Below are positions 9,985 through 46,153 of a stretch of 54,119 nt of DNA, one piece after another. The DNA lies in assembly GCA_001767435.1 (NCBI GenBank), contig MEKT01000120.1, forward strand, positions 30,977 to 85,095, given 5' to 3'. This stretch comes from Acidobacteria bacterium RIFCSPLOWO2_02_FULL_65_29 (GTDB taxonomy: Bacteria; Acidobacteriota; Vicinamibacteria; Vicinamibacterales; CAVVIG01). Below the pieces are notes generated by a model. That model made no database searches. It worked only from the letters and a program-made list of their open reading frames with translations, and was not told the origin of the DNA. Position numbers and translations under genes: made by a program. Positions within the stretch are counted from its first letter, which is position 1, and every line of letters starts with the position of its first letter.

Positions 9985-11175
9985 ATGGCCAACTTTAAGG
10001 TGATACCTTCGCCGCGGCTTCACAGGCTGCGGCTCGGCATAGCCGCAGGCGCTGCGGCTGTCGCTGCGGCCCTGATGACGACGACGGCGGCGACGCTCGT
10101 CGCGCAGCAATCGCCGCGGCGCGCGACCAACATTGCCGCGCTCAGGAGCTTCCCCGCGTTCTTCCACCTGCGCCCTGTTGTCGTCATCGGCAATCTGTCC
10201 CTGTCGGACAACGGCGATCTGCGCCTGGCCGACGAGACGAGCTCGGTGCGTGTGGTGTTCAAGGGCGCCACGCCAGAGGGGCTTGCCGAAGTGCGCGGCG
10301 AGTTCTGGGACCTCGGACGCATGAACGCCGACGATGCGCGGCTGGCCGGTTACGACCTGCCCAAGACCTTCCGGATCGATCCGGAAGGATCGTGGCCGCG
10401 CCCCGGAACCGTGACCGCCATCCTGGCGAGCGCCGTCGCGGAAACGACGCCGCCGTCGAGCGCGACCATTCGAGGCATGGTGCTGAACCCGGCGAGATTT
10501 CTCGATCAGAAAGTCACGGTCACCGGACAATTCGCCGGCAGAAACCTGCTGGGCGATCTCCCGGACGCGCCCGCCAAGAGCCGATACGACTTCGTGATTC
10601 GATCCGCCGATGCCGCGATCTGGGTGGCCAATCTGCGGCCCCGCGGAAAAGACTTCGAGCTGGCGCTCGACGCGCGGATCGACACCGGACGGTGGGTGGA
10701 AGTGTCTGGTGTGCTGCAGCAGGGCCGCGGCCTGCAATGGCTGGACGCGACCGGCACGGCGATCGCCTTGTCGACACCGCCCGTGGAAACAACGGCGCAG
10801 GAAACGCCGATCCGCGTACCGGCGGCTCCCGCGCCGGAGGTCGTCTTCAGTACTCCGACGTCGGAGGAGACCGACGTCCCGATGACCACGAATATCCGGA
10901 TTCAGTTTTCACGCGACATCGACGCGTCGACGCTCAAAGGGCACATCACGGTGAAGTACGCCGAGGGAAACACCCAACCGCGTGGCGAGCCCGAAGCGCT
11001 CACCACCGAATTCACCACGCAGTACCTGCCCGGCAACCGGGTGCTGGAGATTCGCTTCGCCAAGCCGCTCGAACCATTGCGGCTGGTGAACGTCGACCTC
11101 GGCGACGGCATTCTGGGGATGGACCGGCAGCCGCTGGTGCCGTGGACGCTCACCTTCACGACGGGGGCACCCTGA
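9985..11175 (+). CDS. Secreted protein with C-terminal Ig-like (Big_5-type) domain
   Basis: 396 residues with an N-terminal signal (LGIAAGAAAVAAALMTTTAA, then LVAQQ). Two beta-rich segments follow (about 45-115, VVVIGNLSLSDNGDLRLADE; about 160-260, GQFAGRNLLGDLPD and WVEVSGVLQQGRGLQWLDAT), which read like OB-fold or tRNA-anticodon-type beta barrels (inference). The C-terminal 100 residues (VVFSTPTSEETDVPMTTNIR, then IQFSRDIDASTLKGHITVKY) match the bacterial Ig-like Big_5 pattern common in surface proteins. Likely co-transcribed with the OPT transporter. Function unknown. Confidence 0.75.
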   Translation: MANFKVIPSPRLHRLRLGIAAGAAAVAAALMTTTAATLVAQQSPRRATNIAALRSFPAFFHLRPVVVIGNLSLSDNGDLRLADETSSVRVVFKGATPEGLAEVRGEFWDLGRMNADDARLAGYDLPKTFRIDPEGSWPRPGTVTAILASAVAETTPPSSATIRGMVLNPARFLDQKVTVTGQFAGRNLLGDLPDAPAKSRYDFVIRSADAAIWVANLRPRGKDFELALDARIDTGRWVEVSGVLQQGRGLQWLDATGTAIALSTPPVETTAQETPIRVPAAPAPEVVFSTPTSEETDVPMTTNIRIQFSRDIDASTLKGHITVKYAEGNTQPRGEPEALTTEFTTQYLPGNRVLEIRFAKPLEPLRLVNVDLGDGILGMDRQPLVPWTLTFTTGAP

Positions 11176-11188
11176 CGCGTGGGACGCG

Positions 11189-11268
11189 AATTTGAGGATT
11201 TGAGGATTTGAGGATTTGAGGATTTGAGGATTTGAGAATCTGAGGATTTGGAGAGATTTGGGGATTTC
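11189..11268. repeat. Octamer array GAGGATTT
   Basis: Six to seven near-perfect GAGGATTT copies, then diverged ones (GAGAATCT, GAGGATTT, GGAGAGATTT), starting 13 bp after the stop of the Ig-like protein gene. No inverted partner next to it. Confidence 0.9.
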
Positions 11269-11290
11269 TCAACGATCTCTGCGGCCTCTG

Positions 11291-11331
11291 CCCTTCGACT
11301 GGCTCAGGGTCGCCCCGAGCCCAGTCGAGGG
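11291..11331. repeat. Hairpin element CCCTTCGACTGGCTC
   Basis: CCCTTCGACTGGCTC and GAGCCCAGTCGAGGG form a stem with a short GC-rich loop. Elements with CCTTCGACT...AGTCGAAGG-like ends are widespread dispersed repeats in environmental bacteria (general knowledge). It supplies the last codons of the VWFA-like remnant. Confidence 0.6.
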
Positions 11332-11816
11332 ACGACAAGCTCAGGGCATCGCGAGCCCGCCGAGGGTCGCTTCACGCGGACCCTGACTGCGTGGAATTTC
11401 CCGTCAAACTTGCCGGTCGAATAGTACGCAAGCAGGTAGTACGACGACAGATCGGCGGTCACGCGCCGCAGTCCGGCCTCGAGATCGTTGGTGGCGACGA
11501 TGGCGAGGCCGTCGGTGGCGAAGGCGAGGTCGCGGAGCGGAACACCGTCTTCGAGCACCTCGAAGTCTTCCTGCCGCAGGTCCACGACGGGCGCGCCGTT
11601 CGCCGTTGGATAGACGTCGACGCGCACGTAGTTGGCTTCGGTGCGAAATGTCGGTGTTTGAGCGTCCTGCAGGTCGCGTCCGGCTTCAGCCGGACTCAGG
11701 AGGTCGTGTTCGGCTTTAGCCGGATTCAGGAGGTAGTGTCCGGCTTTAGCCGGACTTGTCAGGGTGACGACGACCGATGCGATGACGAGCGGGGACAACC
11801 TTCGGACCAAGCACAT
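11304..11816 (-). pseudogene. Collapsed VWFA-related protein (vWA core deleted)
   Basis: The reading frame is open (170 codons), but the protein seems to be the two ends of a much longer family. N-terminal part: signal peptide, then RTEANYVRVDVYP...VVDLRQEDFEVLEDGVP, the start of acidobacterial VWFA-related proteins. C-terminal part: FATDGLAIVATNDLEAGLRR, then SSYYLLAYYSTGKFDGKFHA and VRVRVKRP, the usual end. The von Willebrand A core with its metal site that should lie between (well over 100 residues) is missing. Three copies of a 30-bp hairpin repeat sit between signal peptide and domain, and another hairpin repeat supplies the C-terminus. It could be an expressed mini-protein, but an internal-deletion relic is more likely. 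Confidence 0.65.
11679..11757. repeat. Three tandem 30-bp units with TCCGGCTTTAGCCGGA hairpin
   Basis: Units start at about 11679, 11709 and 11739; each is TCCGGCTTYAGCCGGA plus TCAGGAGGTNGTG. The palindrome has 7-8 bp arms around a 2-base centre. In the VWFA-like frame the array encodes three 10-residue repeats (SPAKAGHYLL type). Confidence 0.85.
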
Positions 11817-30016: not shown

Positions 30017-30061
30017 CTGCTCACAACCCGAAGGTCGCGGGTTCAAATCCCGCCCCCGCAA
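30017..30061 (+). pseudogene. 3' part of a tRNA (island-edge remnant)
   Basis: A complete T arm (GCGGG-TTCAAAT-CCCGC, 30037-30053) and the 3' strand of an acceptor stem (CCCCGCA) follow CTCACAACCCGAAGGTC, which looks like part of an anticodon loop and variable region. The 5' half does not pair or resemble a tRNA. Such 3' tRNA fragments are what integrating elements leave or bring. The intact parent tRNA is not in this window; identity (Val-CAC or a Met-like tRNA) is uncertain. Confidence 0.75.
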
Positions 30062-34161: not shown

Positions 34162-35120
34162 TCAGGCCGCATATCGCCAAAGCTGCAGATAATGGTGGTT
34201 GCGAGCCCCCGCAACCAATTGAATCGGCACGTGAAGGTCGCCTGTCTCGGGCGACCTTTTCGTTTGTTGGGCAGCAGTCAACATCGCGGCCAGATTTCCC
34301 CTCAACTCGATCCGGAGCTGGCCCCCATCCGGCATCAAGACGATCGAATCGATCAGCCCGCGAAGCATCTCCGAGGCTTCCAAGCGCGTATCTTCGCGCT
34401 GGAGTGCCGCGGCCAGCTCCTCGACCTTGGAGCGATAGAGGTCGGCCATGCTCGGGTGCAGGAGCGGCGGCGGTTCGTCTGCCACTACCAGCTGTGCGAG
34501 CAGCGCTTCCTTCCGAGCCTGCAGATCCGCCATCCGGTCCTTCAGCTCCGAACCCTTCACGCCATCGACGATCGCCTCGATGACCTTCTGGATGTCGCGC
34601 TTGACGCGCTCCAATTCGCGTTTGGCGCCGGTCAGGCCGGCCCGTTGCTCCATCCGGAGCCGGTTCATCTCCCGCGCGAACTCGCGGCAGAACTCCTCGA
34701 AGAAGTCCTTATGCATCAACTTGTCTTGCAGGGCGCTGAGCACACGCGCCTCGACTTCCAGTCGCGAAATAGTCAGCTTGTTGGTGCACGTCCCACGGTC
34801 GCGAGTGCCGAAGCATCCGAGCTGCTCGCGCGAGTAGACGACGAAGCCGGCGCCGCACTCGCCGCATTTCGTCAGGCCGGAGAACAGATACTTCGGCCGG
34901 CGGAACTGGTTGAAGCGCTTACCTTCCTCGGCTGACTTCCATTTCCGCTGCACGCCGGCGTATCGCGTCTGCACGGCCTGCCACAGCTCATCGCGCAGAA
35001 TCCGCAGCTCGGGCACGTCCTTGGTGATCCACTCCGACCGCGGATTCGGTCGTGCGACTCGCTTGACAGGCCGTTGCTTGCCGACCGTTAGCCCTCTGTC
35101 GATCGCAATCCTTTCCGTGG
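34162..35120 (-). pseudogene. Large serine recombinase, 5'-truncated
   Basis: About 310 codons of a phage/ICE-type serine recombinase. Present: the end of the Recombinase domain (RPNPRSEWITKDVPELRIL), the zinc ribbon (LTKCGECGAGFVVYSREQLG, then a CTNKL Cys), the coiled-coil arm (EFAREMNRLRMEQRAGLTGA, ELERVKRDIQKVIEAIVDGV) and the C-terminal segment LRGLIDSIVLMPDGGQLRIE. Missing: the whole N-terminal catalytic resolvase domain with its Ser nucleophile. The frame continues upstream into DNA that belongs to the AbiEii gene in another frame, so the break is near 35115. It cannot catalyse recombination alone. Its last codons (LVAGARNHHYLQLW) contain the island core repeat. Confidence 0.88.
34177..34218. 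repeat. Island core repeat, copy in recombinase 3' end
   Basis: Plus strand: AGCTGCAGATAATGGTGG then TTGCGAGCCCCCGCAACCAA. GGTTGCG...CGCAACC is a 7-bp inverted repeat around GAGCCC-type loop. Similar sequence recurs at 43329 and 46113 without the gene, and the core CCCCCGCAACCAA alone at 39824. Confidence 0.8.
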
Positions 35121-35123
35121 GAT

Positions 35124-35990
35124 CTACGACGACGAACTGAGGATGCGAGCGACGAAGTCTCGGACCCTGACGAGCGCCATGTCGACGTCCGTTTCGGCCA
35201 GCTCGAGTTCGAGGGCGAGTTGCGCAAAAGGCTCCGTCCAATGGGACGGCATGGTGGCCAAATCGGGTGGCCACGGATGGGTTCTCCGACTGCGGAAGAC
35301 CAGTTCGCATGCCTCACGAAGAGCGACGTAGTCGTGGGTGACCAGTGCTTCCATCAGGAGCAAATCGACCAGGTCTCGGAACCGCTCGTTCTGCTTGCCA
35401 GGCCGTGGTGGAAGCGTCAATCCATGCAGCTTCTGCGCGACGTGGAACCGAAGTGGCAGGCACGGCAGCAGCGCTGGGCCCGTGACGCCGAAGGCGTCGG
35501 TCAGAGCGATGGCTTCCACCCATTCGACCTCGGATTCGCCAGCCTCCGCGCGAGCGATGTCGACGCTGATGCTGGTCCAGGGCTGGCCCCGATACGTGAC
35601 GGCGAACTCCATGTTGACCGCCCCGTTGTCAAGCAGGAGCGGCTGGCCTTTGCGGCGGAATGAGAACCCTTGATACGCCTCACCAGTCAGTGGCTGCTCG
35701 AGAGCGTCGGCGAGGTCTGCCTTCGTGTCGCGAAGGACGATATCGATGTCCTTGGTCGCGCGGGCTCGGTCACGCAGACGCAACTCGAGCGCAACCCCGC
35801 CCTTGACGATGAACCTTGGCACGTCGGCACCGGTGGCACGCTCGAGCACACCCGCCAGGATCATGTAGGCCACCCATGCGCGAACGCGACCTTCGGCGAC
35901 CCCGAGCTCGCGCGCGTACGCCTGCGCATACCTCGCCAGCACGCCGGCCGACGGCGGAGGGCCGGTCGGTCGTTTCGGATCCGCCGTCAC
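35124..35990 (-). CDS. abiEii: AbiEii-type nucleotidyltransferase toxin
   Basis: Toxin of the type IV AbiE toxin-antitoxin/phage-exclusion system. 288 residues with the minimal nucleotidyltransferase pattern: RFIVKGGVALELRL (GG..L), then RATKDIDIVL (T-DID metal-binding Asp pair), SVDIARAE, and C-terminal LPLRFHVAQKLHGLTLPPRP with FRDLVDLLLM (the K/H and D-L motif of the COG2253 group). Complete at both ends. Its start overlaps the AbiEi stop by 4 bp. Its 3' end abuts the truncated recombinase, which marks a rearrangement next to the defence system. Confidence 0.9.
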   Translation of the reverse strand: MTADPKRPTGPPPSAGVLARYAQAYARELGVAEGRVRAWVAYMILAGVLERATGADVPRFIVKGGVALELRLRDRARATKDIDIVLRDTKADLADALEQPLTGEAYQGFSFRRKGQPLLLDNGAVNMEFAVTYRGQPWTSISVDIARAEAGESEVEWVEAIALTDAFGVTGPALLPCLPLRFHVAQKLHGLTLPPRPGKQNERFRDLVDLLLMEALVTHDYVALREACELVFRSRRTHPWPPDLATMPSHWTEPFAQLALELELAETDVDMALVRVRDFVARILSSSS

Positions 35991-36601
35991 CTCGCATCCA
36001 CGCGCGCGGGCGTCGCGCGCCGGCGTTTCGGCCGGGTCCCAAGCAGCTCGCGTTCCAGGCGATCAGCTTCGACGATAGAAAGGACACCCGAGCGTCGTCC
36101 ATCGGCGATCGCCTGGCCAACGAGGTCGTTCCCAAGGTGGCTGGCGTGCGCGTCACGAATGGACCTGGCCGGTTTCGTGACGGGCACACCTTCAACGCGC
36201 TCGACATCGCCGGCCGCCAGATCCGTGTAGTGAATGGCCAGCCTTTTGGGCACCTCCCGGCGGATGCGAACGGTGGTCGGCAGCGTGACGTGGACACGCG
36301 CCGGGCTAACGTCAGACAGCTCGTGGATGGACAGGGCGGACTGATGGGAGATCACGCCGACGACATCGGGCCGGCGGACCTGGGGCCACAGAACGGCCTC
36401 CATGTAGCTGCCAAGTCGGGACACCGGGAACCGGGTGAAACGGTACACACCGCGAGACACGCGATCGATGTCCCCCTGCTGGGCGAGTTGGACGAGACGG
36501 ACCTGATGCAGCCCGGCCGCCCGGGCTTGGGCGGCCGTGAAGTAGCCGGCCTGATCTTCGGCGATTCCGTAGAGGACGGTGTCCCATTGGCGTTTATGCA
36601 T
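35987..36601 (-). CDS. abiEi: AbiEi-type antitoxin/transcriptional repressor
   Basis: 204 residues from ATG 36601 (MHKRQWDTVLYGIAED). N-terminal winged helix (GYFTAAQARAAGLHQVRLVQ then DRVSRGVYRFTRFP) typical of AbiEi family-4 antitoxins, then a C-terminal domain (VVGVISHQSALSIHELSDVS, TLPTTVRIRREVPKRLAIHY, VTKPARSIRDAHAS). The frame is open 38 codons further upstream, but those residues are not family-like. An AT-rich stretch (AATAATATAACG, about 36621-36632) just upstream probably holds the promoter. The antitoxin normally binds repeats in this region to autoregulate. Confidence 0.9.
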   Translation of the reverse strand: MHKRQWDTVLYGIAEDQAGYFTAAQARAAGLHQVRLVQLAQQGDIDRVSRGVYRFTRFPVSRLGSYMEAVLWPQVRRPDVVGVISHQSALSIHELSDVSPARVHVTLPTTVRIRREVPKRLAIHYTDLAAGDVERVEGVPVTKPARSIRDAHASHLGNDLVGQAIADGRRSGVLSIVEADRLERELLGTRPKRRRATPARVDAR

Positions 36602-36734
36602 GACGACCTGGCCTGATGGCAATAATATAACGTCTTTGAGTATTAATGACAGCGCTTCCAGACTGCAGAGCTTCGCGGATCGGAGGCCACCCGAATTAGC
36701 GAACAGGCTTCGCACAAGCTCCGACCCCCGCCCG

Positions 36735-37730
36735 TCAGGTGGTCCGAGCGCGTACGAGCTCCCGAGCGTGCTGGAAGAACTTCGGATCTTCGGCGTGCTT
36801 GCTCACGAGCCAATCGACAAAGGCTTCCGTGTACTTCCGCGGCGAATGCTGAGCCTGATAGGAGAACATCGGATCGTCGTCGACTTTGTGGACGCGGCGA
36901 ACACATTGAAGGTCGTGTCCGCTGACGCTGGTCTGTCCACCCAGACGTTCCGCGAGCCGCTGAACCAATTCCTTTTGTCGATGCGGATAGAGCTTGTCCG
37001 CCTGCATCACGCTCAGGGTGGGGGCACTCTCGTCATTGGTCAACCGGATTGCGGTTGCTTCCGGCGTGTCTCGGAGGGCGACGCTGTCTACGCCCACTGT
37101 GGGTGCTCCGTCGCCAGTGGTCAGTCGAACCGGAGTGGCTTCAGCTGAATCCTTCAGCGTGATCGCTCGCTGAACGATCTGAACCGTCGATCCGGCCGGT
37201 GCGGCCATGACCTTCCCGATGCCATCCAGCCAGAATCCCTTCACCTGCTCAAGCTCGCGTTCCAGGGCCTGCCGCAAGTCATCGGTGGTTCCAGGCTCAC
37301 TCTTCGCGCCGTGCCGGAAGTAGACGCTTCCTTTGACAAACGCCGCCTTCTGGCCGCCGCCCGGTGCCGCGTAGCCGCCATGCGCTGTGAACACGATCGG
37401 GATGCGCGACGCACCGACCTTGATGACAGCCACGGGCTTGCCGAAGCGCAGGCCTTGAACGATGTCAAATGCTGCGAAGTGCTGATCAGTGTAGCTGTGG
37501 ACTCTGTTCGTTACGTCGGCAGGATCAACTGCCAGCAAAGGAGCAATGTCCGAGTTCGACAGGTTCCCATCATCATCGACGCCGACGACGATCGATCCGC
37601 CGCCGGAGTTGGACATGGCGACTATGTCCTTGATCAGCTCACACCAATCCTGTTTCGACTCCGGATCGAAGGACGACTTGAAATCGAGAGAAGCCGATTC
37701 TCCGTCGAGGGCGTCAATATCGATTGCCAT
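36735..37730 (-). CDS. AlbA_2 (Schlafen-type) ATP-binding/DNA-binding protein
   Basis: 331 residues. The N-terminal AlbA_2/AAA_4 domain (residues 9-125) has SLDFKSSFDPESKQDWCELI, KDIVAMSNSGGGSIVVGVDD and VYFRHGAKSEP near its end. The middle holds two copies of one motif: AITLKDSAEATPVRLTTGDG (about 190) and VALRDTPEATAIRLTNDESA (about 220). The C-terminus (LYPHRQKELVQRLAERLGG, CVRRVHKVDDDPMFSYQ, YTEAFVDWLVSK) is a small domain seen with such proteins. AlbA_2 proteins occur widely in defence and mobile islands; biochemical role not assigned. Upstream of abiE on the same strand with about 130 bp between. Confidence 0.82.
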   Translation of the reverse strand: MAIDIDALDGESASLDFKSSFDPESKQDWCELIKDIVAMSNSGGGSIVVGVDDDGNLSNSDIAPLLAVDPADVTNRVHSYTDQHFAAFDIVQGLRFGKPVAVIKVGASRIPIVFTAHGGYAAPGGGQKAAFVKGSVYFRHGAKSEPGTTDDLRQALERELEQVKGFWLDGIGKVMAAPAGSTVQIVQRAITLKDSAEATPVRLTTGDGAPTVGVDSVALRDTPEATAIRLTNDESAPTLSVMQADKLYPHRQKELVQRLAERLGGQTSVSGHDLQCVRRVHKVDDDPMFSYQAQHSPRKYTEAFVDWLVSKHAEDPKFFQHARELVRARTT

Positions 37731-37829: not shown

Positions 37830-38819
37830 CTAGGACACGTTGACCAGGGGAGAGAGATGACCGTATCGGTGGCCGAGTTCAAGCGTCTCAATCCGCCCGG
37901 CCCCGGCCTGCACGGCATTCTGAATGGCGCTTGACGCCAGGCCGGCGAGCGCCGCGTCGCCCTCCTTCTTCCAGAGCTTGAACAGCACGTGGTACTTCGG
38001 TGCGGCGAGTAGGTCGCGGTTCTCGACATGGTGATCCGTGGGGCCGAAGTCGAACGGGTAGTGCTGCGTTCGCACGCCCTCGAAGCGCTGACGAACAGCG
38101 GCGATGTCGTCCGGGCTCAGTGCCGGCATGGCCAGTTGGGTGAAGAACGCCTGCTTCACCCGCTGCGCCAGATCCGAGAACTGCGGCGGAACGACGACGC
38201 GCACGGTCCACGCTGGTAGGGCGCGAAGGACCGCGGAGTGCCGCTCCAGGAAGAGGCGAAAGTCGTTCAGTGTCGGATCAAGAACGACGTAGACCAGGAC
38301 GCCACGCCCGGACAGGTGAATGCCGATCGGCAAGCGGTCAGGGAAGGACCGCACTATCCGCCGCTCGCCGTTGCGGATTGACACGTGAGGGAGGTCCTCA
38401 GGCGTGATGCTGGTGAGCGCCGTCAGATGATTGGCCTTGTCCTCGGCAGTGCCGAGCCAGATCATCTCCGCGTCCTCGACGATGGCGTCGAGCACCATCA
38501 ATCGCTGGATCGCGTGGTTCAGCGTGAGCGGTCGCCGGAGCTTGCTGTCTGCCTCCCCGATGGCCGCGTAGAGCGCCCGCTGGTTGACGTGGTAAATGCG
38601 CGCGCGGTTGTGACGGCAGTCGTACATCGACGCGCAATGAAGCCGCACGAGCTTGGCGAAGAACTTCCTCGTCTTCGCACCGTGCACGATGCCACAGTAG
38701 CGCGCGTACTGACGCGGTACGCCGACACCCGCATGCAGCATAACGGTTGTCAGGAATCGCGCCTGGCGCTCTGTGAACCCCTTCTTGGCGACGGCCTGAA
38801 CGCGCTCGTCGAACGTCAT
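37830..38819 (-). CDS. Winged-helix protein, second gene of an unassigned island pair
   Basis: 329 residues, not assigned to a named family. N-terminal winged helix (FTERQARFLTTVMLHAGVGV then YARYCGIVHGAKTRKFFAKL, YHVNQRALYAAIGEADSKLR). The middle (LTLNHAIQRLMVLDAIVEDA, WLGTAEDKANHLTALTSITP) and the beta-rich end (VLVYVVLDPTLNDFRLFLER, LPAWTVRVVVPPQFSDLAQR) are reminiscent of replication-relaxation-type proteins of mobile elements (inference). The ATG overlaps the stop of the 308-residue partner by 4 bp, so the two are one translational unit. Confidence 0.72.
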   Translation of the reverse strand: MTFDERVQAVAKKGFTERQARFLTTVMLHAGVGVPRQYARYCGIVHGAKTRKFFAKLVRLHCASMYDCRHNRARIYHVNQRALYAAIGEADSKLRRPLTLNHAIQRLMVLDAIVEDAEMIWLGTAEDKANHLTALTSITPEDLPHVSIRNGERRIVRSFPDRLPIGIHLSGRGVLVYVVLDPTLNDFRLFLERHSAVLRALPAWTVRVVVPPQFSDLAQRVKQAFFTQLAMPALSPDDIAAVRQRFEGVRTQHYPFDFGPTDHHVENRDLLAAPKYHVLFKLWKKEGDAALAGLASSAIQNAVQAGAGRIETLELGHRYGHLSPLVNVS

Positions 38820-39742
38820 CGCAGCAGCTCCTCGATGATGCTGGGTGTCCGTCCACCACTGCGTCCACCGCCGCCGCTACGTGTCGAGAAGTAGAGCGTG
38901 AAGCCCGAACCGGACTTCGCGGCAGCGTGCGCGCCTCGGTAGTGCGGCGTCATGACCTCGACGTCGAGCGTGTGGTCGTGGCCGTCGATGTCGTACTCGA
39001 TCCGGACGTCGGGGAACTGCACGTGCCCCTGGTCGTCACACGGCAGGTTGTGCTCACGCGCCCAGTTTTGGATCTCCAACGGGTCACGGTCGGGCCGGCC
39101 GTCGCTGTCGGCACGGCCACGATTTCGCTCCTGAAGGAACTGCTGGTACTCGCGCTTCAGCTCGTAGTCCAGGACGATGCGATCGACTCGCGCACCGCGC
39201 TGCTCGAGGCGCTCGGCTTCGCGCTCGTACGCCCGGTAGATCTGCGAGTCGTGCTCGACCTCACGTGGCTTCTTCAGCTCCGCGTAGAACCGTTGTCGCC
39301 AGTCGTCCTCGTTCCGGCCACCGCGGCCCTCGCGGTCGCGGCTGCCGGCGTGCTGTTTCCGATGCGACTCCAGCAGATCCTTGCCGCGGTCCGTCAGGAC
39401 GACGACGCCATGGCGGTGGCCGGCGAGCGGAATGGTGCGAACAAGACCCTGCTCGCGGAGGTGACGAAGGTCGCCCTTGCGCGGGTCGCAGGGCTGACCG
39501 TTGTGGTCCTGCAGGTCACGCGCTGGAATGACGCGGAAGACCCCGACGAGACTCAGCGTGCGGGATTCGGAACCACGAAGCGTGTACTCCCGGTCGCGGT
39601 CACGGACCAGCTCGCGTTCGTGTCCGCGAGGCAAGTCGAGCTGGTTGACGAAGACGTCCCGAGGATCGACCGGGTCTCTGTCGCGTGCGTCGTCGTCGCG
39701 TTCACGAGGATCGCTTCCCCAACGAGGATCATCATCAAACAT
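38816..39742 (-). CDS. Charged protein with winged helix and nuclease-like C-terminus, first gene of the pair
   Basis: 308 residues, unusually rich in Asp, Arg and Glu. Order: acidic/basic N-terminus (1-35); a stretch EREYTLRG-like (RDREYTLRGSESRTLSLVG) leading to a winged helix (FRVIPARDLQD, LRHLREQGLVRTIPLAGHRH, LTDRGKDLLESHRK, about 50-130); a long charged helix (ELKKPREVEHDSQIYRAYER, about 155-215); a C-terminal alpha/beta part (FPDVRIEYDIDGHDHTLDVE, VMTPHYRGAHAAAKSGSG, about 250-290) with a D...ExM/K arrangement resembling a PD-(D/E)XK nuclease core, although the lysine is not convincing. Probably involved in mobile-element DNA processing; no family name assigned. Confidence 0.72.
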   Translation of the reverse strand: MFDDDPRWGSDPRERDDDARDRDPVDPRDVFVNQLDLPRGHERELVRDRDREYTLRGSESRTLSLVGVFRVIPARDLQDHNGQPCDPRKGDLRHLREQGLVRTIPLAGHRHGVVVLTDRGKDLLESHRKQHAGSRDREGRGGRNEDDWRQRFYAELKKPREVEHDSQIYRAYEREAERLEQRGARVDRIVLDYELKREYQQFLQERNRGRADSDGRPDRDPLEIQNWAREHNLPCDDQGHVQFPDVRIEYDIDGHDHTLDVEVMTPHYRGAHAAAKSGSGFTLYFSTRSGGGGRSGGRTPSIIEELLR

Positions 39743-39823
39743 GGTCGGAACCTCCTGAAATAACGGCGTTTAGACGTGCTCACGCCGCCACCCAACAGAG
39801 CTTCCGGTACAATCGGAGGCGCC

Positions 39824-39836
39824 CCCCCGCAACCAA
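39824..39836. repeat. Island core repeat CCCCCGCAACCAA (isolated copy)
   Basis: Identical over 13 bp to the cores at 34206 and 46141, without the recombinase tail around it. It lies 16 bp upstream of the Xre-type antitoxin start, between two oppositely oriented gene blocks. Confidence 0.6.
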
Positions 39837-39851
39837 CGGGACCGACGGCCC

Positions 39852-40382
39852 TTGAGCCCGACGGACTTCGGCCCGAGTGAAGTGACTTTTGTGTTTTCGC
39901 TGTCAGACCGGAACGACTGGCGTTACGGGAACGCCATCGCCGACGCTCCCGTTCACGACCGCCACGGTGTCTTCAGACGCGTCCAAGAGATCCTCGGCGT
40001 CCAGCGATTACGCACGGACCAGGATCTCGTCACGCTCGTCGTCGAGCAGCGGCTGTCGTCCCGTGCCATCGATTCGTTGCGTCAATCCGGTCTCACCGAT
40101 GAAGAGATCTACTCCCTCGTCGTCCCCAGGCGCACGCTGACGCATCGCCGCGCACGACGAGAAGCGCTGAGCCGCGACGAGTCGGATCGTGTGGTTCGGA
40201 TCGCACGGGTGGTGGCTCTGTGCGAGGAGGTGTTTGCCGATCGCGAGCGCTCTTGGCGTTGGCTTCGAGCCGCCAAGCGCCAGTTCCAGGGACGTGCGCC
40301 ACTGCAGCTGCTTGCCACCGAAGCGGGCGCGAGGTTCGTGGAAGAATTGCTCTGTCGCATCGACGAGGGCATGGCCGCCTAG
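39852..40382 (+). CDS. Xre/MbcA/ParS-family antitoxin of a RES toxin
   Basis: 176 residues (TTG start). After a 45-residue leader (start uncertain; family members are nearer 140-150 residues) come VQEILGVQRLRTDQDLVTLV, a helix-turn-helix-like part, the block VVPRRTLTHRRARREALSRD then ESDRVVRIARVVALCEEVFA, and the C-terminal toxin-binding domain PLQLLATEAGARFVEELLCR ending IDEGMAA. These are the standard marks of Xre antitoxins paired with RES toxins. The RES toxin follows, separated only by the 158-bp mobile repeat. Confidence 0.9.
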   Translation: MSPTDFGPSEVTFVFSLSDRNDWRYGNAIADAPVHDRHGVFRRVQEILGVQRLRTDQDLVTLVVEQRLSSRAIDSLRQSGLTDEEIYSLVVPRRTLTHRRARREALSRDESDRVVRIARVVALCEEVFADRERSWRWLRAAKRQFQGRAPLQLLATEAGARFVEELLCRIDEGMAA

Positions 40383-41062: not shown

Positions 41063-41230
41063 TCGCCTATACCGCTAGAAGGTCGCGGCACTGGCCGAGG
41101 GCCTCGAGCATCCAGAGACCCGCACCGAGGCCTTCGAGGCGCTTCGTGGCCTCATCGACGCCATCGTCCTGACGCCGAACCAGGGCGAGTTGCAAATCGA
41201 ACTGAAAGGGAATCTGGCGGCGATGCTGGC
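41063..41230 (+). pseudogene. C-terminal recombinase fragment (plus strand)
   Basis: Plus-strand reading: LYR-stop-KVAALAEGLEHPETRTEA then FEALRGLIDAIVLTPNQGEL and QIELKGNLAAMLA, matching the C-terminal region of the serine recombinase at 34162 (LRGLIDSIVLMPDGGQLRIE). It ends abruptly at about 41230, where the inverted partner begins. Confidence 0.8.
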
Positions 41231-41231
41231 C

Positions 41232-41439
41232 CGGCCATCTCCGGGTGAAGCAGCGGCGGCGGCGCGTCCGCGGCGGCGAGCTTGGCTTTCAATTCCTCGC
41301 GTCTGACCGCGTTCGCGTTCAGCTCGTCTTTGACTTCGCTGGCTGGAACGCCCTCCATGATGGACTCAACGAGCTTCTTCCGTCGCGCCTCGATGCGCTC
41401 GATCTCGCACTCGGCGGCTGACATGCCTGCGCGGTGCAC
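41232..41439 (-). pseudogene. Coiled-coil recombinase fragment (minus strand)
   Basis: Minus-strand reading AECEIERIEARRKKLVESIM, EGVPASEVKDELNANAVRRE, ELKAKLAAADAPPPLLHPEM, the coiled-coil arm just before the segment found inverted at 41063. Together the pieces reconstruct one recombinase 3' half cut at the HPEMADLYR position, with one part flipped. Confidence 0.8.
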
Positions 41440-41863: not shown

Positions 41864-41991
41864 ACGCTCGGTATCGCCTCGCGACACCGCCTCCTCGAAC
41901 AGGTTGCCAGCGTAGTGCCCCCGAGGTTCAACCGGCCGATGCGTTCAACAGCCCCGACGCCGAAGCCCAAAAGACCGCCGCTTGGCGGACC

Positions 41992-42007
41992 ATCCCAGAA
42001 GTGGGAT
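41992..42007 (+). promoter_or_regulatory. Palindromic operator/promoter of higBA-like pair
   Basis: ATCCCA-GAAG-TGGGAT is a perfect 6-bp inverted repeat; GATAAT (42005-42010) overlapping its right arm could be the -10, 7 bp before the ATG. Good candidate for HigA-type autoregulation, possibly with a very short leader. Confidence 0.6.
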
Positions 42008-42016
42008 AATTGCTAC

Positions 42017-42400
42017 ATGCGACGCGTCCTGGCTGCCAGCGAGAAACCGCTGCACTGGGTCGGGTCCTCCAAGCGCGATTTCTTGAGCTTCCCAGCGGCC
42101 GTCAAGGAGGATATGGGAAACGCCCTCGGCATCGCGCAGTTCGGTGGAACTGCACCAACGGCGAAGCCGTGGAAGGGACTCGGTCCGGGAGTGCTGGAGG
42201 TCGTTGAGTCGCACGACGGAAACGCGTATCGAGCCGTGTATACGGTTCGGTTCGAGAAAGCGGTGTACGTCCTCCACGCGTTTCAGAAGAAGTCGCCGTC
42301 CGGCATCCGGACGGCCAAACGGGATGTTGATCTCGTCGCCGAACACCTGAAAAGCGCCCAGAGGGATCACGAGGAGCAGTATGGCACGCAGAAGCGCTGA
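42017..42400 (+). CDS. HigB/Gp49-like RelE-superfamily toxin
   Basis: 127 residues from ATG 42017. Phage-derived Gp49-like/HigB pattern: PLHWVGSSKRDFLSFPAAVK, DMGNALGIAQFGGTAPTAKP, WKGLGPGVLEVVESHDGNAY, RAVYTVRFEKAVYVLHAFQK and KSPSGIRTAKRDVDLVAEHL. These mRNA interferases act on translating ribosomes. Toxin-first gene order with a downstream HTH antitoxin overlapping by 20 bp is typical. Frame intact. Confidence 0.9.
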   Translation: MRRVLAASEKPLHWVGSSKRDFLSFPAAVKEDMGNALGIAQFGGTAPTAKPWKGLGPGVLEVVESHDGNAYRAVYTVRFEKAVYVLHAFQKKSPSGIRTAKRDVDLVAEHLKSAQRDHEEQYGTQKR

Positions 42401-42725
42401 ACGGAGATTACCGGTAACTCGCGGCACCGGAAACGTGTTTGCGGATCTCGGGTTTCCAGACGCCGCCGAGCGTCAGGCTAAGCTGCGCCTGGCTTATGCG
42501 CTGAATCAAGTGCTCGAAGCGCGCAAACTCTCGCAAGCCGATGCCGCCAAAGTGCTGGGGGTGACGCAGCCGAAGGTGTCTGCACTTCGTCACTACAAGC
42601 TGGCCGGTTTCTCCGTCGAGCGCCTGATGAACCTGTTGACGGCGCTCGACCAGGATGTCGAGATCGTGATTCGGCGCAAGCCTCGGTCTCGGAAGGCTGG
42701 TCGGATTAGCGTCGTCGCGGCGTAG
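42381..42725 (+). CDS. HigA-like Xre antitoxin
   Basis: 114 residues with an HTH (LRLAYALNQVLEARKLSQAD then AAKVLGVTQPKVSALRHYKL) and the tail FSVERLMNLLTALDQDVEIV typical of HigA2-type antitoxins (COG5606). Overlaps the toxin gene by 20 bp, so translational coupling is likely. Confidence 0.92.
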   Translation: MARRSAERRLPVTRGTGNVFADLGFPDAAERQAKLRLAYALNQVLEARKLSQADAAKVLGVTQPKVSALRHYKLAGFSVERLMNLLTALDQDVEIVIRRKPRSRKAGRISVVAA

Positions 42726-46112: not shown

Positions 46113-46153
46113 CACAGCTGCAAGTACCGGCGGTTGCGAGCCCCCGCAACCAA
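46113..46153. repeat. Island core repeat, second orphan recombinase tail
   Basis: Minus strand reads LVAGARNRRYLQLW; core CCCCCGCAACCAA at 46141-46153. Same orientation as the copies at 34177 and 43329, with no recombinase gene attached. Confidence 0.82.

Follow-up and report, generated by a model that had tools for sequence, protein, structure and literature searches.

We identified a two-gene module, P1–P2, in the window (the whole stretch of DNA analyzed here, 54,119 nucleotides from an Acidobacteriota genome), which is well supported as a mobilization module and whose first product is predicted to be a nicking relaxase, as seems likely. The pair most likely encodes a DNA-nicking protein (a highly divergent relaxase akin to restriction enzymes) and a partner, which together would initiate DNA transfer from cell to cell, rather than a means of virus defense. 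Homologues occur in T4SS operons and on T4SS-less integrative islands, which supports the original prediction of a DNA-processing module. In the mechanism that we consider probable, P1–P2 would be the DNA-processing module of phylum-wide acidobacterial ICEs and of smaller T4SS-less integrative elements. P1 would bind an origin of transfer through its winged helix, with the non-coding DNA ahead of its gene as the probable site, and would nick one strand through its PD...DxE domain, aided by the invariant Tyr268 and/or a metal. P2, as a translationally coupled winged-helix partner, would shape or recruit the complex, and the nicked complex would pass to the VirD4-type coupling protein encoded beside the pair in ICEs or, in T4SS-less islands, to a coupling protein from a helper element.

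The 2 genes, called as open reading frames of 308 aa (P1) and 329 aa (P2), overlap by the 4 bp noted originally, in an ATGA stop/start (Table 1). This spacing of exactly −4 bp was identified in 29 of 56 homologous pairs, and 50 of the 56 measured pairs, with start codons picked by a heuristic, are spaced between −11 and +3 bp. Approximately 55 homologous pairs were found in Acidobacteriota, with P1 and P2 together in nearly all of ~60 loci, and the pairwise distances of the 2 proteins are correlated (r = 0.91 across the whole set, 0.59 in the window's order alone, and 0.23 at most in shuffles). Because of the co-occurrence, the tight spacing, and the correlated distances, the pairing is far from chance. 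No homology between P1 and P2 was detectable when their profiles were compared. The 5.5-Mb genome harbors 1 full-length copy of each gene. A P2 paralogue fragment with 39% identity was also identified on another contig of the source genome (G000:C12:5692-5976, L003) and is probably a relic of another such element.

Table 1. Coordinates of the P1–P2 pair and of surrounding features in the window.
Feature	Position	Strand	Remark
P1	38816..39742	-	Disordered DPRD-rich N-terminus, MarR-like winged helix, C-terminal PD...DxE domain; candidate MOBC-like relaxase
P2	37830..38819	-	N-terminal winged helix and alpha/beta domain, no conserved catalytic acids; obligate P1 partner
P1–P2 stop/start overlap, ATGA	38816..38819	-	Kept in 29/56 pairs; putative translational coupling
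att-like core repeat TTGGTTGCGGGGGG	39823..39836	-	Upstream end of P1–P2 element
att-like core repeat TTGGTTGCGGGGGC	34205..34218	-	Within 3′ end of serine integrase remnant
Third att-like core repeat	46140..46153	-	Far end of neighboring tandem island
Large serine recombinase, C-terminal part only	34162..35310	-	Catalytic resolvase domain missing
AlbA_2 (Schlafen) protein, cargo	36735..37730	-	
AbiEi antitoxin, cargo	35987..36715	-	
AbiEii nucleotidyltransferase toxin, cargo	35124..35990	-	
Rearranged fragments of second serine recombinase (neighboring island)	41067..41433	.	
tRNA-Met-like 3′ half, without 5′ half	30019..30061	+	Putative attachment-site remnant, ~4 kb past P1–P2 element

A P1 scan of 84,980 species genomes, with patterns that reach close relatives, gave matches in Acidobacteriota only. 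P1 was present in 11 of the 27 genomes of the window's family, with seven matches in 1 genome, and in 31 of 396 genomes across the phylum. Curated family models miss both proteins: no match beyond chance was found for P1 or P2 in NCBIfam, PHROGs, and PADLOC, with no P1 match and a single chance-level P2 match (E 0.037) in PADLOC-DB. Further, tblastn of 72,556 plasmids found no homologue of either protein, and neither profile had a match among IMG/VR contigs.

Both proteins start with a winged helix, and P1 ends in a D...E-containing alpha/beta domain; the predicted models bear out the original reading on both points. In the AlphaFold2 model of P1 (mean pLDDT 71.6), ~40 disordered charged residues precede a winged helix at approximately residues 43 to 140, which aligns with MarR-type regulators (VIA-align Z 8-10), and the C-terminal part is alpha/beta. 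The C-terminal domain holds PD244-245 and DxE260-262, which belong to a second-domain motif H..PD..(D)xE..T..Y. Residues H164, D165, R188, P244, D245, E262, Y268, G280, and F281 show no variation in 59 of 59 P1 homologues, D260 is D in 55 of the 59, and T265 is T or S in all. The N-termini of P1 (residues 1-40) and of its homologues have repeated DPRD/DPRE motifs and are predicted to be disordered; this segment is possibly a signal recruiting the coupling protein.

The Pfam family PF13814 (Replic_Relax) corresponds to the MOBC relaxase class (PMC5357655). Members of this class share a kinship with restriction endonucleases in the active site, and their prototype has an N-terminal winged HTH (PMC12857230). 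Like MOBC/PF13814 proteins, such as CloDF13 MobC and pAD1 TraX, P1 has a MarR-like winged helix at the N-terminus and a C-terminal H..PD..[DE]x[DE]; as with MOBC, which is used by ICEs and IMEs, its gene adjoins that of a VirD4-type coupling protein (PMC12857230, PMC5357655). These features support the original likening of P1 to restriction-type nucleases or replication-relaxation proteins. The MOBC/Replic_Relax reference set has an invariant H, PD, and ExD/ExE pair, mostly followed by T. CloDF13 MobC is frameshifted in NC_002119, and a relative was used in its place.

The window P1 is unmatched by PF13814, and no member of the P1 family reaches the gathering score: the P1 of locus L097 scores 24.6 bits (E 3e-5) against a cut-off of 25.3, and 4 further homologues match weakly. 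A search of 13 host genomes with PF13814 gave 0 matches at E 1e-3, where control genomes also gave none. Profile-profile comparison of P1 with MobC and phage Replic_Relax proteins supported the winged helix part alone (E ~0.005); the strand and helix order of the C-terminal domain is compatible with the PD-(D/E)XK type in the model, with profile support stopping at the winged helix. Foldseek and VIA comparisons with the PDB likewise matched winged helices alone, in both P1 and P2, and since one domain filled the match list, the lack of a PDB nuclease match for the P1 C-terminal domain does not count as evidence. Unlike MOBC, P1 has a disordered DPRD-rich N-terminus, an obligate partner (P2), and a distance of ~80 residues between H and PD, as against 34. 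After ExE, MOBC proteins have K and R-Y residues (K167, R171, and Y172 in MobC); P1 shows no conservation of these at the corresponding spacing and has Y268 and H272 nearby instead. We call P1 MOBC-like and not MOBC, because no P1 scores above the family cut-off, profile comparison covers the winged helix alone, and P1 lacks the K and RY of MOBC.

Among viral models, the top BFVD structural match of P1 was Bacillus phage G gp146, which is itself a PF13814 protein (4e-25) and the best whole-length neighbor of P1; the match spans 265 columns and is weak (E 0.007, TM ~0.2, 11% identity in the structural alignment). Unlike P1, the phage Replic_Relax proteins (gp146 and SPO1 gp27.3) are encoded by single genes, with no P2 counterpart seen alongside. 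Related phage proteins are annotated as "replication initiation by nicking", and MOBT proteins do both jobs (PMC5357655), so P1 might chiefly start replication by nicking and thereby maintain the excised circle, with transfer secondary; we consider this quite improbable, as the pair is embedded in T4SS operons beside the coupling protein. In the SPO1-like phages L126 and L127, the Replic_Relax gene gp27.3 comes directly after the P-loop NTPase gene gp27.4, an order that recalls how MOBC plasmids pair a coupling protein with the relaxase.

The model of P2 has its winged helix at residues 1-90 (Z 6-7), followed by a second alpha/beta part, and no conserved acid pair was identified in the alignment of its homologues. 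P2 is likely an auxiliary relaxosome protein. The candidate reading of P2 as a dead MOBC copy was set aside when a collinear MobC alignment (E 0.0012) shrank to the winged helix once phage sequences were added.

The pair was identified inside a T4SS operon in 31 of the 59 rows of the P1 tree, a placement seen in 3 deep clades of Acidobacteriota. The outcome that was originally named as refuting the prediction, homologues always lying within known conjugation operons, holds for these 31 rows (about half) and fails for the rest, which are mobilizable-type islands. In L099, the gene order is VirB4, VirB9, VirB10, VirB6, VirB8, a small protein, P1, P2, an RHH-like protein, VirD4, and VirB11. Pfam identified the VirB4-type ATPase, VirB9 (CagX), VirB10 (TrbI), VirB6 (TrbL), VirB8, the VirD4-type coupling protein, and VirB11; the RHH-like protein (105 aa), without a Pfam match, was recognized by eye. 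Across 20 genomes, 10 of 11 full-length VirB4 relatives lie within ~8 kb of P1–P2. The window's genome harbors no full-length VirB4 relative and no T4SS of the family associated with P1–P2. Several of the T4SS loci end with a serine integrase overlapping or adjoining the 3′ end of a tRNA (tRNA-Ala, -Gln, -Met, or -Phe), and a P1–P2 T4SS element of ~40 kb in G164 is bounded on both sides by repeats of the tRNA-Phe end. Because of the serine integrases at tRNA ends and the tRNA-Phe repeats around ~40 kb, we take these T4SS loci to be ICEs. Published criteria would put a VirB4 cluster in which no relaxase is recognized among the putative protein exporters (PMC3158045), and the associated T4SS could accordingly export proteins and not DNA, under the control of P1–P2. 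This is extremely unlikely given that the T4SS sits on tRNA-integrated elements with integrases and that P1–P2 travels without a T4SS too.

A census that covered the 4 relaxase classes MOBP, MOBF, MOBQ, and MOBH was made with their models in 13 P1 host genomes. No relaxase of these 4 classes was found over the cut-off anywhere in 6 genomes (G006, G369, G080, G164, G403, and G192) or within 100 kb of P1 in 12 of the 13; the remaining genomes except G133 had a relaxase on other contigs or >100 kb from P1. The G133 contig that holds P1 and a T4SS also encodes MOBP- and MOBQ-like proteins, 21-25 kb away from P1, as might be seen if some other, unrecognized gene encoded the true relaxase, with P1 and P2 serving as accessory DNA binders or regulating the transfer operon. 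MarR-like winged helices in both proteins would suit such a role, and relaxosomes commonly need auxiliary proteins (PMC12857230). Nevertheless, a regulator would not have to stay with an integrase in T4SS-less islands, as P1–P2 does, and acidic, His, Arg, and Tyr residues are invariant in the second domain of P1; we consider an accessory role rather unlikely and P1 itself the better candidate for the relaxase.

P1–P2 was identified without a T4SS alongside a tyrosine integrase in 9 loci and a serine recombinase in 10 loci (the window counted), often with a tRNA 4-6 kb downstream. Exact 46-nt repeats of a tRNA 3′ end bracket a 5.5-kb element in L092, where the integrase is degraded, and such repeats surround the pair or P1 in L075 (49 nt), L101 (24 nt), and L022 (45 nt). 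Apart from the recombinase, P1–P2 is the only recurrent pair in the T4SS-less islands. Only 3 changes explain the T4SS label on the P1 tree, as against at least 5 for tyrosine integrases and at least 7 for LSR, so integrases have been exchanged around a stable P1–P2 core. These islands show the make-up expected of integrative and mobilizable elements (IMEs), sharing with them an integrase at a tRNA 3′ end, direct repeats, mobilization genes without a T4SS, and TA cargo. They differ from known IMEs in that their mobilization proteins are unrecognized, and their IME status is read here from genes and repeats; they also have no coupling protein of their own, whereas known Streptococcus MobC IMEs encode VirD4 (PMC5704250). 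Upstream of P1, 5 related islands (L084, L086, L100, L105, and L106) share a conserved non-coding stretch of ~200 bp that contains inverted repeats (GCCCTGAACG...CGTTCAGCGC) and is a candidate origin of transfer. No strong inverted repeat marking oriT was found just upstream of P1 in the window. In L075, an integron-integrase-like tyrosine recombinase (10732-11781; IntI-like N-terminus, by eye) adjoins P1 inside the P1–P2 element, in addition to the element's own integrase.

Mobile elements are sorted by their relaxase. With a relaxase that is missed at curated thresholds (Pfam, NCBIfam, PHROGs, and PADLOC), acidobacterial ICEs would look like protein exporters and IMEs like orphan islands, and P1–P2 elements may be misfiled in surveys because recognition of a relaxase is what keeps a T4SS from being listed as a putative protein exporter under published criteria (PMC3158045). 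We suggest tentatively, and with some doubt, that P1–P2 is the founding member of a new relaxase class that has two components, is restriction-enzyme-like, differs from MOBC in its present definition, and serves many ICEs and IMEs of Acidobacteriota, such that relaxase-based surveys would miss the conjugative systems of a whole phylum or call them protein exporters. Through the pair, horizontal transfer could be approached directly in a soil phylum of high abundance, and the altered active site of P1 (without the MOBC lysine and RY, with invariant D, E, and Y) makes it testable how non-HUH relaxases cut and rejoin DNA.

In the window, the sequence TTGGTTGCGGGGG has 3 minus-strand copies: one at 39824-39836, the isolated copy of the island core that had originally been placed next to the pair, and others at 34206 and 46141. 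A longer form, TTGGTTGCGGGGGCTCG, with at most one mismatch, occurs at the 2 outer sites only across the 5.5-Mb genome; the reading of TTGGTTGCGGGGGC as a dispersed repeat was rejected, as the extended form is restricted to this genome region. TTGGTTGCGGGGG is the reverse complement of a tRNA 3′ end, and in L078 a tRNA-Met 3′ half adjoins it. In a related ICE of G412, the serine integrase overlaps tRNA-Met, and positions 34205-34257 of the window are 89% identical to this tRNA-Met end and the adjoining att arm. We infer that the window repeats served as attachment sites; no intact tRNA was found at the 3 positions. Between the 34.2- and 39.8-kb repeats lie, in order, P1, P2, AlbA_2, AbiEi, AbiEii, and the C-terminal part of the serine recombinase, of which window positions 34204-35061 match residues 252-547 of an intact relative of 556 aa. 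P1 and P2 are intact and the integrase is truncated, its catalytic domain being lost, unlike in IMEs. In our reading, the window copy is a mobilizable element that has decayed; it measures ~5.6 kb and forms a tandem with another island that extends to 46.1 kb.

The AlbA_2 and AbiEi/AbiEii genes downstream of the pair and an Xre/MbcA/ParS antitoxin upstream confirm the AlbA_2/AbiE and Xre neighbors first described, and a pair so flanked could be an anti-phage defense or plasmid-maintenance module carried as cargo. We consider this very unlikely: PADLOC gave no match, AbiE and AlbA_2 vary among loci, and the conserved neighbors elsewhere are conjugation (T4SS) genes or integrases, so the suggestion of a defense module is not supported. 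A pair of AbiEi/AbiEii genes very like that of the window was identified in L079 (G006:C44), ~4.6-6.1 kb downstream of the P1 start, beside another P1–P2, which suggests repeated cargo exchange among P1–P2 elements. The neighboring island, between the 39.8- and 46.1-kb repeats, carries the Xre/MbcA/ParS antitoxin at 39852-40382 and a Gp49-like toxin with an HTH_37 antitoxin at 41915-42725.
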